Assembly: GCA_003170655.1 (NCBI GenBank)
Contig: PMYY01000140.1
Coordinates: forward strand, 1-36,039
Direction: 5' to 3'
DNA: 36,039 bases
Source: Nitrospiraceae bacterium
GTDB taxonomy: Bacteria; Nitrospirota; Thermodesulfovibrionia; Thermodesulfovibrionales; Dissulfurispiraceae
In this document: positions 28,041 to 35,262 of the stretch, in pieces
How positions within the stretch are numbered: the first letter of the stretch is position 1
How the letters are laid out: each line of letters starts with the position of its first letter
The notes under the pieces: generated by a model
Databases searched by the model: none
What the model saw: only the letters and a program-made list of their open reading frames with translations
What the model was told of the DNA's origin: nothing
Made by a program: the position numbers and the translations under genes

Positions 28041-30647
28041 CTATCCCTTTCCGCCACCTTCCATCAGCTCGTAGTTACCCTCTTTGAACCTCTGTGCATA
28101 ATATGCAATGGCCGTATCGTCACGCAACAGGGCATCTAGCTTTCTCACGAAGGCGATGAGTCTTCCGAGCTGGTCGAGGACCTCTTCCATCCGGACCCTG
28201 CCGACATTGGCAAGCCGGGCTATGAGTAGGTCCCCGGTCGTCCAGATAGTAAACCCATGCTCCTTCAATATTGATGCTATGAATTGTACCCGTCTGGAGC
28301 GTTGCACCAGATCGGTAGCACCTCCGGAAAAACGGAAATAGACATGATTATTCCTGGGGTTCTCGCTGCAGTAACAATCCACTATATTGAAGTGATACCC
28401 GAACTTGAGACTGAGGTTGACGTACTCCCTAGAAGCAACTGCAACATTCTGGATGGGGGAGCTCATGCTCACCGAGTGGATGTCGGGCATTCTAGTCATG
28501 CTCATGAAAAAATCTTTCATCCGCAGTGGGACCGCCTCGTTGTGCCAGGCTCCCGGGTAAATCATTCCTCCGAGAATCGCCTTGAGCGGTATAGACGCTA
28601 TTTCGACAGCCGTTGCGGTCTTCTTTGCATCATTTTTCGTGTTAGACCTCACCTTCTCAAGTCCACCTCCCATATCTATAAGTACGATGCTCGCAGGGAT
28701 AGGCAGATCCAGTGCCACAGCAGTATACCCCCTGAGACTCGCCTTCTGATGCCGGGCGCAATCCACGAGTTCCATAATCGATTTCTCGTGTATGAATCTA
28801 AGGATGTCGTGCATGGTCTTGCACTCTTCGGGTTGAAATTTATCGTGAAGCGGTTCAATCAGGTTGAGCGGGGAAATATGTCTCAGCACATATCTTTTCC
28901 TCAGGTATTCGTGACCCTCCGTAACGCTCGCTGCGTTTTCATCACTGCAGCCTTGCAAGTCGTCAATCAGCCCCTCGTATACCGTACTTCCTTCATCGTT
29001 GATGCTAACTGTGATTCCCATCCCGTTCCGTAGAATCTGGGTAGCATCGTCCGTGTTTACAATTGTCGGAATCCTGAACTCTCTCGAAAGCGAAGCCATA
29101 TGGCTGGTTGGGGTTCCGATATCCGTGATAATCGCGGATACATCATTCATGAGTCGCACAAAGACAGAGAAGTCGCGCTTTGAAACAAGGATAGCGCCTT
29201 TCGGTACATCTTTTATATCTTCCGGCGTCTTTACAATGAAGACCGTACCGCTTCCGATGCCCTTCTGGACCGCAATGCCTTTATTTCTGATCAACACCGG
29301 TTTCGATACAAGGGATTTGAGGACCGAGGCGCACTTGTGGCGCTCGTCCTCTCCCAGTCTCAGCTCCCTCGACTGCAGGATGAATATGCGTCCATTCCTG
29401 TCAATTGCCCATTCGATGTCCTGGGGGGTTCTGAAATGCTTTTCGAGCGACTGAGCCATCATGGTCAGTTCCACTATGGCATCCGGATCAAGAACCTGTC
29501 TTCCTCTCAAATCACTGGGTGTGTGAATGGAGTCAACTCCCCCATCGGGGAGTACTACCGTCATAGTCTCCTTCTTGCCACACCGGGTACCGAGAATTTG
29601 CGGCACCTGTCCCTTTTTGACCCTGTAAATATCAGCCTCCACGAGTCCATCGACAACGGTCTTTCCGAGGCCCCAATTCGCACTGATCAACGTGTTCTCT
29701 TTCTTTCCGCTCGGATCGACAGAATACACTACTCCGCTGGAGACGGCATCGACCATGGCCACGCATCCGACTGCCATTTTCATTTTCCCCGCGTCGTATC
29801 GGAAGCGTCTCTGGTAAGCAATTGAATGAAGCGAGAAGAGGCTGGCGACCACCTTTTTATAAGCCTCTTTGATCGCTCTGCTTTCCAGTGGCACATTGAG
29901 CACCGTATCAAATTGACCGGCGAATGAAAGTCTTCCATCCTCCTCTTCCGCGCTGCTTCTGACGGCGACTGAGCATAACGCCCCGCATTTCGTCCTCATC
30001 TTTTTGATGGCCTTGTCGAAAACCTCATCCAGGGATGGGGGAATCTTGCTGCCGATGATCGCATTGCGAAGCACAGCGAAATCGTTCTCCGAAACGCTGT
30101 CGGTCTTCATCAGTGCCCCGGCCCTCTCTCTGAGTCCGTTGAACGCGATGAATTCATCGAATGCAAGCGTAGTTATGAAGAAGCTTTCCGGGACATCGAG
30201 CTTGAGGATGTTGGCGACTTCTGCGAGTCCTGCATTCTTGCCGCCCACCTCATAGTACATATCCCATAAAGTATCTTCCCGAAAAACTATCACTTCGCCG
30301 GAAGTGGAGGCCGAATTGGACAGCATGTCGCTGATCCTGTTGTCGATCCGGATGAACGCATCCATAAGATTGGGATACTTGCTGCGGGTGAAGGAGTCGA
30401 AGCTCTTTATTGAATCCCAGACAGCGGTGGATAGCTCGGCGTATGCATTCTCGATATAGTTGGTGTCGAACAGGTATTCACCGCTGAGTTTCTCACCCAT
30501 GTCCGCAATCATCTCCACTGCCTTATTGTGGCTTGCAAGCACTTCCCTGAATTTATTGAACAGGTCCCTGAAAGGCGGTGAAGGGGAAACAGCCCTCTTC
30601 ATCTTCTTTTGCAGGGAGCGTAAAACTCCTTCTAAACTCTTGCCCAT
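28041..30647 (-). CDS. PEP synthase / pyruvate phosphate dikinase-like protein: ATP-grasp plus phosphohistidine swivel domain, with an unassigned C-terminal domain instead of the PEP-binding barrel
   Basis: 868 aa; YEVGGKNAGLAEVANILKLDVPESFFITTLAF, VAVRSSAEEEDGRLSFAGQFDTVLNV, DIEWAIDRNGRIFILQSR, TDIGTPTSHMASLSREFRIPTIVN. No recognisable PEP-utilizer TIM barrel after about residue 560. Confidence 0.82.
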   Translation of the reverse strand: MGKSLEGVLRSLQKKMKRAVSPSPPFRDLFNKFREVLASHNKAVEMIADMGEKLSGEYLFDTNYIENAYAELSTAVWDSIKSFDSFTRSKYPNLMDAFIRIDNRISDMLSNSASTSGEVIVFREDTLWDMYYEVGGKNAGLAEVANILKLDVPESFFITTLAFDEFIAFNGLRERAGALMKTDSVSENDFAVLRNAIIGSKIPPSLDEVFDKAIKKMRTKCGALCSVAVRSSAEEEDGRLSFAGQFDTVLNVPLESRAIKEAYKKVVASLFSLHSIAYQRRFRYDAGKMKMAVGCVAMVDAVSSGVVYSVDPSGKKENTLISANWGLGKTVVDGLVEADIYRVKKGQVPQILGTRCGKKETMTVVLPDGGVDSIHTPSDLRGRQVLDPDAIVELTMMAQSLEKHFRTPQDIEWAIDRNGRIFILQSRELRLGEDERHKCASVLKSLVSKPVLIRNKGIAVQKGIGSGTVFIVKTPEDIKDVPKGAILVSKRDFSVFVRLMNDVSAIITDIGTPTSHMASLSREFRIPTIVNTDDATQILRNGMGITVSINDEGSTVYEGLIDDLQGCSDENAASVTEGHEYLRKRYVLRHISPLNLIEPLHDKFQPEECKTMHDILRFIHEKSIMELVDCARHQKASLRGYTAVALDLPIPASIVLIDMGGGLEKVRSNTKNDAKKTATAVEIASIPLKAILGGMIYPGAWHNEAVPLRMKDFFMSMTRMPDIHSVSMSSPIQNVAVASREYVNLSLKFGYHFNIVDCYCSENPRNNHVYFRFSGGATDLVQRSRRVQFIASILKEHGFTIWTTGDLLIARLANVGRVRMEEVLDQLGRLIAFVRKLDALLRDDTAIAYYAQRFKEGNYELMEGGGKG

Positions 30648-30652
30648 ATCTG

Positions 30653-31015
30653 CTATTTCTCCAGCGCCCGTTCTATGGATGCTTTAAGTTCCTTGATCTT
30701 GACAGGCTTTGGGAAAAAGTCGAAGACATCTCCTCGGAGTGCTTCTATGGCGGTATCCAGATTGGCAAAAGCCGTAATCATGATGACCTTGGTCTTTGGG
30801 TATTGTTCCTTTACCGTCCTGAGGACCTCCATGCCATCGATGCCTTTCATCTTGAAGTCGGTAACGACCACGTCGAATGTTTCTTCTTTGAGCCTTGCCA
30901 GTGCCGACTCTCCGCTCAGGAAGGTCTCCACAACATACCCATCATGTTCCAGAGCCATCTTTGCCATATCGACCACGATCTTTTCGTCATCGACAACCAT
31001 GATTTTATTGCTCAT
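30653..31015 (-). CDS. Stand-alone response regulator receiver protein
   Basis: 120 aa; IMVVDDEKIVVDMAKMALEHDGY, DVVVTDFKMKGIDGMEVLRTVKEQYPKTKVIMITAF, FDFFPKPVKIKELKASIERAL; no output domain. Confidence 0.93.
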   Translation of the reverse strand: MSNKIMVVDDEKIVVDMAKMALEHDGYVVETFLSGESALARLKEETFDVVVTDFKMKGIDGMEVLRTVKEQYPKTKVIMITAFANLDTAIEALRGDVFDFFPKPVKIKELKASIERALEK

Positions 31016-32417
31016 CTTTAACCTCCTTTGTTCTTCCGTATGCAGGCAACTCTATAGTGAAGGTCGTGCCGACTCCGACAGTGCTTTCAACCCAGATATT
31101 TCCCTTATGATTTTTTATTATTCCGTAACTTACCGACAATCCAAGCCCGGTGCCGCTGCTCTTCGTGCTGAAAAACGGGTCGAAAATATTCGGCAGATAT
31201 TCAGGAGGAATTCCTTGGCCCGTATCCTTCACATAAATATACACCTTGTCTTCGTCACCTTTCTTTGTCTCAATGGAAAGCTTGCCGCCAGGTGTCATCG
31301 CCTGCGATGCATTTACTATTAAGTTCACCATGACCTGTTCAATCTGGTGCTCGTCGACGCGAACGCGGGGAAGGTTTCGTTCGAACTTCAGGATCAGCTC
31401 GATATTCGACAACTCCAACGTATTCTCCATGAGTTGCATAGATTTTCGTACTATGTCGTTTATGTTCGCCTCCCTTAATTTGGCCTCCCTGGCTTTGGAA
31501 AAGTCCAAAAGGTTCCTTACTACCTCTTCCATCCTTTTGGTTTCTTCGGCGACTCTGTTCAATAGTGCCAGCCTCTTTTCTTTGCTCATGTAATCGTATA
31601 ATTCAAGCGAATTCTGGGTGATCATCGAAATATTGTTAAGCGGATTGATCAGCTCGTGCGCCACTCCGGCTGTCAGGACGCCGAGGGAGGCAAGTTTTTT
31701 TGCCTGGATAATCTCTTCGCCCCTGTCCTCCAGTTCTTCCGACATGCGGTTTATAGCGAGGATTACAGACCCTAACTCATCCTTCGATGTCACATCTTCT
31801 ATCTTCCTGAAATTCCCTTCCGCTATGGACAATGCAAGTCCCTCGATCTCCCTGAGCGAAACCACGATCTTTTTAGAGACAATTCTCCCCAGCACCACGG
31901 CCAGGAACAGTATGCACAGGAATGAGATAAAAAGAACACTCTTTGCATTTGAGATGATGTCGTTGACTTTCTGCCTCTCAAGCTGCGTCTTGTTCCTGAA
32001 GAAATCCCTCAATTTTCCGCCTACGGTCCTCAGTTCCGTTTCCAGGCGGGGGTCCTTGCCTCCGGACTTATCAATCTCATCTATGACTTTGGAATATTCA
32101 TCAAGATATGACCTGAGCAATTGGAGGTTGTTCTCTCCGATGACACGGCTTATGTCGTCCTTAGTAGCTTCGATGGCCTTCATGGAATCGTTTATGTTCT
32201 CATGGATATTGGCGATCCATTTCTCGTCCCTGTAGAGGAGATAGTTTTTTTCGGAAATCCGCATTTCGAGAAAGGATGCATTAAGGTCATCAGATATCTC
32301 AACAAACCTTAGCTTTGCAAGGACCTGGTTCATGTTCTGCAGAGCGAAGATGCCGATCAGTACAATAAACGCTACGTTGAAAAAATATGAATATAGGATT
32401 TTATGTTCGATCTTCAT
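31005..32417 (-). CDS. Membrane sensor histidine kinase with HAMP-like linker
   Basis: 470 aa; two TM helices bracketing a helical periplasmic domain ([15 protein letters not shown]), H-box [19 protein letters not shown]-box [15 protein letters not shown]-boxes [36 protein letters not shown]. Confidence 0.94.
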
Positions 32418-32426
32418 TCAGTGTTC

Positions 32427-33638
32427 TTACTCCGGAACTGGGCATCTCGGCATCTCGGATTGCTCCTTTCTTACCGGCAAGTACCACAATGCGCCGTCCA
32501 CTATCATCAAGACTCCAGCCGCTATAAGCATTATATCGATTACGGCCAAAAAGCTGAATGCGAAATATTTCATAAGAACAAGCCCCAGGCTCGAAAAAGA
32601 CACTCCCGTCCGGATGAAGGCAAGGCCGGTTCTTGCCCTGGCATATATTGTTCTGTAACAGGCAGCAACCGTCCGCTGCGCTGCCAGGACACTCTTTTCG
32701 CGTGTAAGCTGGGTGCGCATCTTGCTCGCCGGTTTCGGATAAAGTATTGTGCAATGATTAGCAAGAAAATCTCCCAGGCGCGCCAGCATAGTCCCTTTCG
32801 TAGGGGTATTCACCCCGGTATCTTCTATGAAATGATAATTTTCAAGGAAATAAATGGTTGCAGCTGTTTCCTGTACCAATGACTGATTACCCGGCGGTTT
32901 CATCCTCATTTTCCTGACCTTCAAATAACCCACCAAGCCGAACACCGCCATAACAAGGCCGATCCCTACAGTTAACCAATAAACGGATAGGAACGTTCCA
33001 GGCTTACGAAAATGTATGAGCACATCCGACAAGGCAATCACTGCAAGGCCCCATCTAAGCACAGTCAGGCTTGTCCTGCCTTTTGCAAGATCGGTCCTGT
33101 AACAGGCAAGCTTCGTTCTCCACTGGGCCATGGTGTTTCGCCACAGAGCGAGACCGGTCCGTTCTGTCCCGGCGAGACGTCCGGGGTTGGCATGCAGAAA
33201 GTCTTTTATGAACCATCGAATGTCCTCCCGAAGTGCAAACCAGACCTCGTATTCTTCCGAGCTGAAATATTTTCTCGCTTCACTCAGGACCAGAGGATTT
33301 TCAGGGTCGTTAGCCGCAATTATTATCTTGTTGCCTTCCTGAGCTATCGGGAACCAATGACTTATGGAAAGCCTGTCGCCATCCAGTCCCTTGAGAAGCT
33401 CAGGCGGTATGGGCATTCTTTCATCGTATTCCACATAAGGACATTGATAATAGTCGGCAAAGGCGTGTATGAGCGCATGGCGGGAAACCCCGTATTCTCT
33501 GATAAGGACGGTTTCGAGGTCGACCGCCCTCGCCTCGGCAGAGTTTATAGCATAAGTTAGCCTATTCGGTGTCAGGACCGAATAATCCAACAGGATGAGA
33601 AATTTCTCCTCAGTCTTATCAGAAGTCTTCATCTTCAA
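32427..33638 (-). CDS. Membrane protein: GspE-N/MshEN-like domain plus two DUF202-like heptad-arginine modules
   Basis: 403 aa; N-terminal FLILLDYSVLTPNRLTYAI...YYQCPYVEYDERMPIPPELLKGL; modules at aa 160-243 and 308-391, each with six R-x-x-L-A-x-x-type heptads then two TM segments. Confidence 0.75.
   Translation of the reverse strand: MKMKTSDKTEEKFLILLDYSVLTPNRLTYAINSAEARAVDLETVLIREYGVSRHALIHAFADYYQCPYVEYDERMPIPPELLKGLDGDRLSISHWFPIAQEGNKIIIAANDPENPLVLSEARKYFSSEEYEVWFALREDIRWFIKDFLHANPGRLAGTERTGLALWRNTMAQWRTKLACYRTDLAKGRTSLTVLRWGLAVIALSDVLIHFRKPGTFLSVYWLTVGIGLVMAVFGLVGYLKVRKMRMKPPGNQSLVQETAATIYFLENYHFIEDTGVNTPTKGTMLARLGDFLANHCTILYPKPASKMRTQLTREKSVLAAQRTVAACYRTIYARARTGLAFIRTGVSFSSLGLVLMKYFAFSFLAVIDIMLIAAGVLMIVDGALWYLPVRKEQSEMPRCPVPE
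32466..32717 (-). repeat. Coding repeat module B2
   Basis: RTQLTRE KSVLAAQ RTVAACY RTIYARA RTGLAFI RTGVSF...LWYLPVRK. Confidence 0.78.
32910..33161 (-). repeat. Coding repeat module B1 (diverged after the heptads)
   Basis: RTGLALW RNTMAQW RTKLACY RTDLAKG RTSLTVL RWGLAV...GYLKVRK. Confidence 0.75.
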
Positions 33639-35262
33639 TCGTCACCCTTTTCCAGTCGCCGGCAGGTCTACCGTAATCCGGTATAATAATCTCCATTCCT
33701 CTAAAGCAATACGGGAATTGTCTGCGTGTTTTCTCAGCTGGGATATACCAATATAGTCCGTCGGCAATTAGCAGGAGACCCGTTGCAATAAGAATCCCGT
33801 CGAAAAGAGTCCAGGAAACCGCCTCCGGTCCATAATAAGACAGCAACCCAATACCAACCGCCGCTACGCTGGCTCCAGTATTGATAAATGCCAGTCCGGT
33901 TCGCGCCCTTGCCATTATAGTCCTCAGTCTTGCCATAACATTGCGCCTGTCGGCCAGCATCGTCCTCTCAAGGGCAAGTCCTGTAGTGGCCCAGATTCCG
34001 CGGGCAAAAGACCGCCTGACAGGAGGCACATGTGCACGAATGGATTCAAAACCCTTTCGTTTGTGTGAAGGCGGGAAAAATATGTCCCAAATGTTTTTAT
34101 TCTCTTGTGTTTTCGTCAGGGATTTAATGCATGTGATTCCGGACCGTCGTCCCGGTAAATACCAATAGACTCCCTCCAATGCCATCAGCATGCCGATCGA
34201 AATCAGAACGATGTCGAACAGAGTCCAGTCGCTTGCCGGGAATTGCTTCAGCATTACAATACCGAGTCCAATAAATGCAATACCGGTTCGCGTAAACGCG
34301 AGTCCGTTCCGTCCCCTGGCCATCAGTGTCCTGTGGCATGCAAGGGTCGTCCGCTCCTCCGACAGGTCGGTCCTGTCACTTGCCAAAAATCGCCGCCGCA
34401 TCACCGGCGACAGGGTGCACCATTTAGCGCGTAGTTCACCGGCCCCTTCCACCGACCCACTGCGTGTAAAGCAGGGACTATTCCCGGGATTAGACATTTC
34501 GAGGACCGTTGCGCCTCCTGTGGGACACGTCGTTGCGCAGTCCAACACTTTCTTGCCTGTCTTCCTTGCCGGCAAATACCAGTTAACCCCGTCGATGGTT
34601 ATCAATATCCCTGCCAAAAAGAGTGCCGCTTCGAAGATGTTTGAGTATCCAATGCCGAACAACCTAAATAGTACGATCGAAATAATAATGAAGGAAATCC
34701 CCGTCCTCATGAAGGCGAGTCCGGTTCGCCCCTTTGCCAAGGACGTCCTATAACTGGCGAGCAAGGATCGTCTTTCTGCAAGGAATATCCGGACCATGGC
34801 GAGAGATGTCCTGGCACCGGAAACACAGAAATTCGGATTCAGGTCAAGGTTGTTCTCAATTATCCTGATAACGTCTGAGGGGAGAGCTACAAGGAAACTG
34901 ACTTTCTTGACATTAAGGGTCCCTTTTATTTCCTCAGCACAGGAAGCGTCGGGATTGCAGGCAATGACCTCAGCCTGGTCGCCTTCGAAATAGAGGGGGA
35001 TCCATAGGGCCTGTTTCATCCTTTCGAGGTCCATCATCTTCACAATTTTTGAAGAGACCATAATATCTTCATCGTATTCAACGAAAGGATGGCCGTAATA
35101 TTCGGTCAGGCAGAACAGTATTTCATGCTTTGGAATGCCTTTTGACAACAAAAGATCTTCGGGATATTTGCCGGCGGCGGTCGATGCGGCTATTATATCA
35201 AGCAATTCTTTTTCGGACAGGAAGCCTTGCTTGATCAATCTTGAAAATTTTTCGTCAAACAT
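33619..35262 (-). CDS. Membrane protein: GspE-N/MshEN-like domain plus three DUF202-like heptad-arginine modules
   Basis: 547 aa; N-terminal FSRLIKQGFLSEKELLDIIAAS...YYGHPFVEYDEDIMVSSKIVKMM; modules at aa 151-234, 290-373, 426-511, ending in WYLPARK / WYLPGRR / WYIPAEK. Confidence 0.75.
   Translation of the reverse strand: MFDEKFSRLIKQGFLSEKELLDIIAASTAAGKYPEDLLLSKGIPKHEILFCLTEYYGHPFVEYDEDIMVSSKIVKMMDLERMKQALWIPLYFEGDQAEVIACNPDASCAEEIKGTLNVKKVSFLVALPSDVIRIIENNLDLNPNFCVSGARTSLAMVRIFLAERRSLLASYRTSLAKGRTGLAFMRTGISFIIISIVLFRLFGIGYSNIFEAALFLAGILITIDGVNWYLPARKTGKKVLDCATTCPTGGATVLEMSNPGNSPCFTRSGSVEGAGELRAKWCTLSPVMRRRFLASDRTDLSEERTTLACHRTLMARGRNGLAFTRTGIAFIGLGIVMLKQFPASDWTLFDIVLISIGMLMALEGVYWYLPGRRSGITCIKSLTKTQENKNIWDIFFPPSHKRKGFESIRAHVPPVRRSFARGIWATTGLALERTMLADRRNVMARLRTIMARARTGLAFINTGASVAAVGIGLLSYYGPEAVSWTLFDGILIATGLLLIADGLYWYIPAEKTRRQFPYCFRGMEIIIPDYGRPAGDWKRVTIEDEDF
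33730..33987 (-). repeat. Coding repeat module A3
   Basis: TTGLALE RTMLADR RNVMARL RTIMARA RTGLAFI NTGASV...YWYIPAEK. Confidence 0.78.
34144..34395 (-). repeat. Coding repeat module A2
   Basis: RRFLASD RTDLSEE RTTLACH RTLMARG RNGLAFT RTGIAF...YWYLPGRR. Confidence 0.8.
34561..34812 (-). repeat. Coding repeat module A1 (heptad-Arg helix plus two TM)
   Basis: RTSLAMV RIFLAER RSLLASY RTSLAKG RTGLAFM RTGISF...NWYLPARK. Confidence 0.8.

Follow-up and report, generated by a model that had tools for sequence, protein, structure and literature searches.

The DUF202 domain is widespread and to our knowledge has no known function in bacteria; none is given in the titles and abstracts consulted from literature that mentions DUF202. 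The closest described assembly is the VTC complex, a pentamer of three Vtc1 chains with Vtc3 and Vtc4, in which five TM1 helices form a polyphosphate channel and residues K24 and R31 line the pore (PMC9911596). A second described relative is found in the MshEN/GSPII N-terminal domains of PilB/GspE-type ATPases, where c-di-GMP is bound through a pair of motifs with the extended form (R/K/L)LGxx[LVI][LVI]xxG (PMC11731258). The locus presented here has features of both.

The window, meaning the whole stretch of DNA analysed, is one complete contig of 36,039 bases, and the two genes of interest, P1 and P2, are its last two minus-strand genes. Positions 32427-35262 hold exactly these two minus-strand ORFs, which overlap by 20 bases. 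The gene order continues with a histidine kinase (HK), a receiver-only response regulator (RR) and a PEP-synthase-like protein, the genes being packed to within a few bases of one another:

33619-35262, minus strand: P1, 547 aa, ATG start; MshEN-like domain (about aa 1-138) and three heptad-extended DUF202 modules (ORF list, Pfam, AlphaFold with pLDDT 85.5, Foldseek)
34555-34812, minus strand: P1 module 1 (aa 151-236), six Arg heptads, TM1, TM2; the six Arg are invariant in 59 homologues
34102-34395, minus strand: P1 module 2 (aa 290-387), six Arg heptads, TM1, TM2 (positions, AlphaFold, conservation)
33718-33966, minus strand: P1 module 3 (aa 433-515), four Arg heptads and N461, TM1, TM2; DUF202 match at 33745-33924
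32427-33638, minus strand: P2, 403 aa, TTG start; MshEN-like domain (aa 8-147) and two heptad-extended DUF202 modules (ORF list, Pfam, AlphaFold, Foldseek)
32904-33161, minus strand: P2 module 1 (aa 160-245), six Arg heptads, TM1, TM2; DUF202 match at 32907-33098
32460-32717, minus strand: P2 module 2 (aa 308-393), six heptads including K315, TM1, TM2 (positions, AlphaFold, conservation)
31005-32417, minus strand: histidine kinase with HAMP, HisKA and HATPase_c (Pfam), adjoining P2 in most loci
30653-31015, minus strand: receiver-only response regulator, 120 aa (Pfam), a conserved operon partner
28041-30647, minus strand: PEP-synthase-like protein, 868 aa, with PPDK_N and the PEP-utilizers swivel domain (Pfam, conservation, operon)

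The same assembly holds a second, partial copy of the operon (G000:C199, L045), in which the HK is 92% and the PEP-synthase-like protein 89% identical. The P2 end of this copy is broken across two frames, and the copy either is paralogous or comes from a strain variant within the bin.

The heptad arginines fall at residues 151/158/165/172/179/186, 290/297/304/311/318/325 and 433/440/447/454 of P1 (the last set flanked by T426 and N461) and at 160/167/174/181/188/195 and 308/(K315)/322/329/336/343 of P2, every position given in the initial annotation proving exact on recheck. These runs far exceed chance. With 20,000 shuffles per protein, a run of six in-register arginines arose in three shuffles of P1 and none of P2, and the positions with three arginines in register number 11 in P1 (shuffled mean 0.23, maximum 5) and 6 in P2 (shuffled mean 0.14, maximum 4). 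In all five modules the heptad run is followed by two hydrophobic segments. AlphaFold models (pLDDT 85.5 for P1, 81.8 for P2) predict each run as a single unbroken helix of 52-57 residues continuous with TM1 (P1 151-202, 286-340 and 421-477; P2 155-209 and 304-359) and then a second TM helix, in agreement with the two TM segments originally noted after each heptad set. The ending WY[LI]Px[RK], originally described as usual for the modules, is kept exactly in three (WYLPARK, WYLPGRR and WYLPVRK) and with a slight change, as WYIPAEK, in a fourth; P2 module 1 lacks it and has GYLKVRK.

Assignment of the modules to DUF202 (PF02656) was borne out by Pfam matches in both proteins. P1 scores 46.7 bits, above the gathering score of 23.4, and P2 scores 23.0 in hmmscan, just under that value, and 23.4 in the six-frame search, over the cut-off; Pfam delimits three DUF202 stretches in P1 and two in P2. 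By both sequence and AlphaFold, each module has the helix with an RT/ERT motif followed by a TM pair that defines DUF202. The tandem arrangement stands as first described, with three modules in P1 and two in P2, each beginning with 5-6 R-T-x-L-A-x-x heptads. Across 59-60 homologues the heptad arginine columns amount to 29 sites (6+6+5 in P1, 6+6 in P2) that are 92-100% Arg, mostly 100%. The two departures in our sequence are private to the window, as N461 of P1 is Arg in 58 of 59 homologues and K315 of P2 is Arg in 59 of 60, while T426 of P1 is Thr in 59 of 59. An ordinary DUF202 protein of 146 aa encoded in the same genome (C58) shares the ERTxLA heptad start and two Pfam-matched TM helices with the modules, but it has only two in-register RT heptads and an apparent third TM, in contrast to the five tandem modules of 5-6 heptads each and the MshEN-like domain of P1 and P2.

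The P1-P2 pair is kept at 43-65% identity in Nitrospirota, Desulfobacterota and Acidithiobacillus, and P1 occurs at 50-62% identity in about a dozen of 60 related genomes. A profile scan of GTDB was needed to recover 79 P1/P2 loci from Nitrospirota, Desulfobacterota (including a Candidatus Electronema) and Acidithiobacillus, the single-sequence GTDB scan having returned no matches; a plasmid search with P2 also returned none. Of the 68 loci with enough flank, 66 have P1 immediately before P2. At the remaining two (L077 and L066) the gene caller had picked a longer antisense ORF, and a P1 gene of 50% identity is present on the L077 contig despite that call. An automatic count gave 3+2 modules in 58 of the 66 adjacent pairs, the eight exceptions tracing to broken or truncated loci, to runs that narrowly miss the threshold or to an additional, spurious N-terminal run. 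Pairs in which both genes are intact all have 3+2 modules. The five module positions form five separate clades across the sampled phyla (bootstrap 100% for four and 93% for P2 module 2), indicating that their order and number were fixed before the lineages diverged or exchanged the operon.

Variants of the locus were also observed. An apparent P2-HK fusion of 872 aa in L106 was rejected as frameshift read-through, since the frame slips within P2 module 2 and the kinase has its own start; a similar frame of 873 aa occurs in G378. Two adjacent P1 genes precede P2 at L036:9969-13435, which doubles the 3+2 total on the P1 side. The one genome of the same genus in the comparison (G001), listed as 100% complete, is without P1-P2, so the distribution of the operon is patchy. 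In Nitrospirota the P1-P2 cluster often comes after a set of Usp-TauE-Alph_Pro_TM-Usp-Usp genes. The 146-aa DUF202 protein of the present genome (L046:58-2654, on G000:C58) is flanked by a Usp and a sulphur-transport (Sulf_transp) protein, and the P1-P2 genes of relatives often come after Usp and TauE.

Kinship to the TM part of VTC, pointed out in the initial annotation, is supported by yeast Vtc1, of which 27 residues from the PDB-chain alignment match the same Pfam model above the cut-off (E 2e-9). Positions 1 and 8 of the DUF202 profile correspond to Vtc1 K24 and R31 (8i6v numbering), and the same profile positions are occupied by R172/R179 in P1 module 1, R447/R454 in P1 module 3 and R181/R188 in P2 module 1; the second modules of P1 and P2 would follow the same register. 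The suggestion of a pore-lining or assembly helix holds up as an idea, through the register shared with Vtc1. P1-P2 resembles the TM core of Vtc1/Vtc3/Vtc4 in its DUF202-type modules, its K24/R31 register and its total of five modules, and differs in having two TM helices per module where Vtc1 has three, a 3+2 tandem fusion and 5-6 heptads. No Pfam match to the SPX or TTM (VTC polymerase) domain was found in P1 or P2 at E values up to 10, and consequently the pair does not belong to VTC and the likeness is one of mechanism. VTC was not among the Foldseek matches listed for the two models.

Both proteins begin with an MshEN domain (PF05157), scored by Pfam at 24.4 and 38.5 bits against a cut-off of 23.1. 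MshE/PilF domains were the best Foldseek matches of both models (probability 1.00, target TM-score 0.62-0.71), the confident matches covering the MshEN part only. Unlike the PilB/GspE-type ATPases, which share this Pfam match and fold, P1 and P2 have neither an ATPase domain nor the (R/K/L)LG c-di-GMP motif. The motif was found in 0 of 119 homologues, which indicates that the fold was retained and the known ligand site lost, and rules out c-di-GMP binding through the known MshEN motif. An ordinary GspE/PilB secretion ATPase is likewise ruled out, as the N-terminal PilB matches are weak and Pfam finds no T2SSE ATPase domain. The MshEN-fold domains probably act in docking or regulation and have lost the established mode of c-di-GMP binding. 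Elsewhere in Nitrospirota and Desulfobacterota, many open frames of ~760-800 aa (for example G050:C37:7020-7451 and G886:C2:102328-102780) match the MshEN region of P2 better than do the secretion ATPases of ~590 aa.

The neighbours of P1-P2 recur with it. An HK is found near the pair in at least 50 of 66 loci, a receiver in at least 39 of 64 and a PEP-synthase-like gene in at least 40 of 54, all of these being lower bounds because antisense ORFs masked some genes. Acidithiobacillus has P1-P2 without HK/RR, so the two-component control step is not universal. By Pfam the response regulator consists of a receiver domain alone, and without an output domain its target must be a protein. The PEP-synthase-like protein has PPDK_N and PEP-utilizers in common with PEP synthase and keeps the ATP-grasp domain, but Pfam finds no match to the PEP_utilizers_C barrel, so that the full PEP synthase domain set is lacking. 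Its swivel-domain His516, the phospho-His position, is invariant in 45 orthologues. The C-terminal domain (about aa 580-868), which has no Pfam match, is undescribed and carries many invariant His/Asp/Arg residues (H613 D614 R617 H620 E621, D658 GGG, H752 D757 N767 H768 R772). Loci of Desulfobulbaceae often have two or three PEP-synthase-like copies around P1-P2.

Heptad extension is carried further in single-module DUF202 relatives, which have 10-38 uninterrupted Arg heptads (12-38 in those of Desulfobacterota), and the heptad run can thus be regarded as a length-variable extension of TM1. This variability, the MshEN-fold domains, the conserved operon and the constant total of five modules had escaped the initial annotation. 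Four of the single-module relatives bear on the operon:

L247:6257-7069: rod of 22 heptads, directly before HK-RR orthologues
L248:2394-3347: rod of 29 heptads, directly before HK-RR orthologues
L249:3287-4393: rod of 38 heptads, directly before HK-RR orthologues
L212:5726-6778: 12 heptads, TM pair and receiver domain in one chain

The neighbours of the three rods are 41-45% (HK) and 54-62% (RR) identical to the genes of the window, and the L212 fusion gene is followed by a PEP-synthase-like gene and an HK. Adjacency to HK-RR and the receiver fusion together support a link between heptad-DUF202 proteins and the two-component pair, and the fusion would make the DUF202 protein the leading candidate target of the regulator. 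DUF202 proteins of ten heptads also occur on plasmids of Leptolyngbya (WP_225907736) and Neorhizobium (WP_037145520), named in RefSeq just 'DUF202 domain-containing protein'. They share with P1/P2 the uninterrupted Arg heptads before a DUF202 TM region, but they are single-module proteins without MshEN, one of them with a bile-acid-symporter fusion. At L253:5980-7422, on a Leptolyngbya plasmid, ten Arg heptads and DUF202 are fused to an SBF domain, and the gene adjoins three more DUF202 genes.

Counted over 167 heptads of the rods and 1,127 of P1/P2, R1-T2-L/M4-A/S5 forms the conserved face, with positions 3, 6 and 7 variable. At 3.5 residues per turn, L4 and A5 lie ~51 degrees either side of R1, and the arginine accordingly bisects the angle between two packing columns. 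Of the 177 rod heptad arginines, none has an acid at i±3/4, compared to 92 of 110 other Lys/Arg in the same segments, from which we infer that the neutralising partner lies off the arginine's own helix. This rules out a single alpha-helix of the ER/K type, and the geometry would fit arginines that face a common interior or hold an anion better than it fits an exposed stripe or such a single-helix rod. The net charge of the rods is +7 to +24, except for L253 (0).

Five modules and pore-register arginines continued upstream are the basis of what we tentatively consider the best reading, a 3+2 Vtc1-like, arginine-lined pseudo-pentamer under two-component control. P1 and P2 would be obligate partners that jointly supply five Vtc1-type DUF202 modules, three from one and two from the other. 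In each module one long helix passes from the cytoplasm into TM1. The five TM1 helices may be arranged next to one another in the manner of the VTC pentamer, and the 29 arginines would line a funnel ~50 Å long, leading into a membrane pore or an anion-binding core. The HK and the receiver-only regulator may control this assembly by direct protein contact, as suggested by a regulator without an output domain and by the related receiver fused to a heptad-DUF202 protein. The ligand would be some anion or polyanion, probably not PPK-made polyphosphate in this organism. Several points weigh against the pseudo-pentamer: the agreement of 3+2 with the five of VTC could be coincidence, each module has two TM helices and not the three of Vtc1, an open tube is difficult to reconcile with rods of 22-38 heptads, and the absence of PPK removes the known VTC cargo. 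The more extended version, a two-component-controlled, Arg-lined helical conduit of five DUF202 modules that carries or senses a polyanion, with a cytoplasmic lumen of ~50 Å in P1-P2 and roughly up to 400 Å in the single-module relatives, appears improbable.

The rods that are awkward for a pore are natural for a spacer, and a non-conducting scaffold, though unlikely on balance, is a serious competitor. The pair would here be a membrane-anchored coiled-coil stalk that holds, or signals among, the HK, the receiver and the PEP-synthase-like enzyme, with arginines serving assembly or small-anion binding inside the bundle. The heptad periodicity in itself, its range from ~5 to 38 repeats and the constant operon link to HK and receiver, including the receiver fusion, are all consistent with such a stalk. 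However, with position a always Arg and position e Ala/Ser, only one large hydrophobic residue is left per heptad, which would make a weak coiled coil, and the arginine register equals that of the VTC pore-lining residues (PMC9911596). We judge it distinctly unlikely that the helices form a poreless surface for acidic lipid headgroups, nucleic acid or another polyanion at the cytoplasmic membrane face. The positive net charge of nearly all rods, the arginines without intrahelical acidic partners and the placement of positive charge on the cytoplasmic side would suit this, but the arginines are central in a conserved Leu/Ala face that should be buried, and in the rods the residues at the exposed positions 3, 6 and 7 vary and are frequently acidic. 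The simple lipid-headgroup stripe originally offered fits less well because of this central, non-exposed place of the arginine. That the pair is a bacterial channel for polyphosphate translocation of the strict VTC kind is very improbable, even given the homology and register with Vtc1 K24/R31 (PMC9911596), as P1/P2 have no SPX or VTC polymerase domain and polyphosphate kinases are missing. Neither PPK1 nor PPK2 was found in this genome, with control genomes positive as expected, nor in G006, an operon-bearing relative complete in a single contig; PPK1 was present in 2 of 60 relatives and PPK2 in none, and most P1-bearing relatives also have neither. Polyphosphate from the known kinases is thus an unlikely cargo here, a strict polyphosphate channel was demoted on this outcome, and the earlier idea of a polyphosphate-binding surface is unsupported for this organism. 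If such a channel did exist, its polyphosphate would have to come from a polymerase other than PPK, and the PEP-synthase-like protein would be the sole local candidate for that role.

The heptad-extended tandem DUF202 pair was not described in the literature searched, and to that extent the claim of a new DUF202-derived architecture holds; long heptad runs as such are not confined to it, being found also in single-module proteins of RefSeq. We would place P1-P2 as a new architecture within the known DUF202 family, with a structural model that is specific and testable and still a proposal. A conserved pair that matches the VTC channel both in its number of modules and in its Arg register allows for a concrete structural prediction, and the rods of 22-38 heptads, with in-register arginines that have no intrahelical acidic partner, are a striking sequence feature of their own. 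Association with a receiver-only regulator and a PEP-synthase-like enzyme points towards a signalling or transport system that has not been described, and P1-P2 and their kin suggest that environmental bacteria have a previously undescribed anion pore or rod under signal control.
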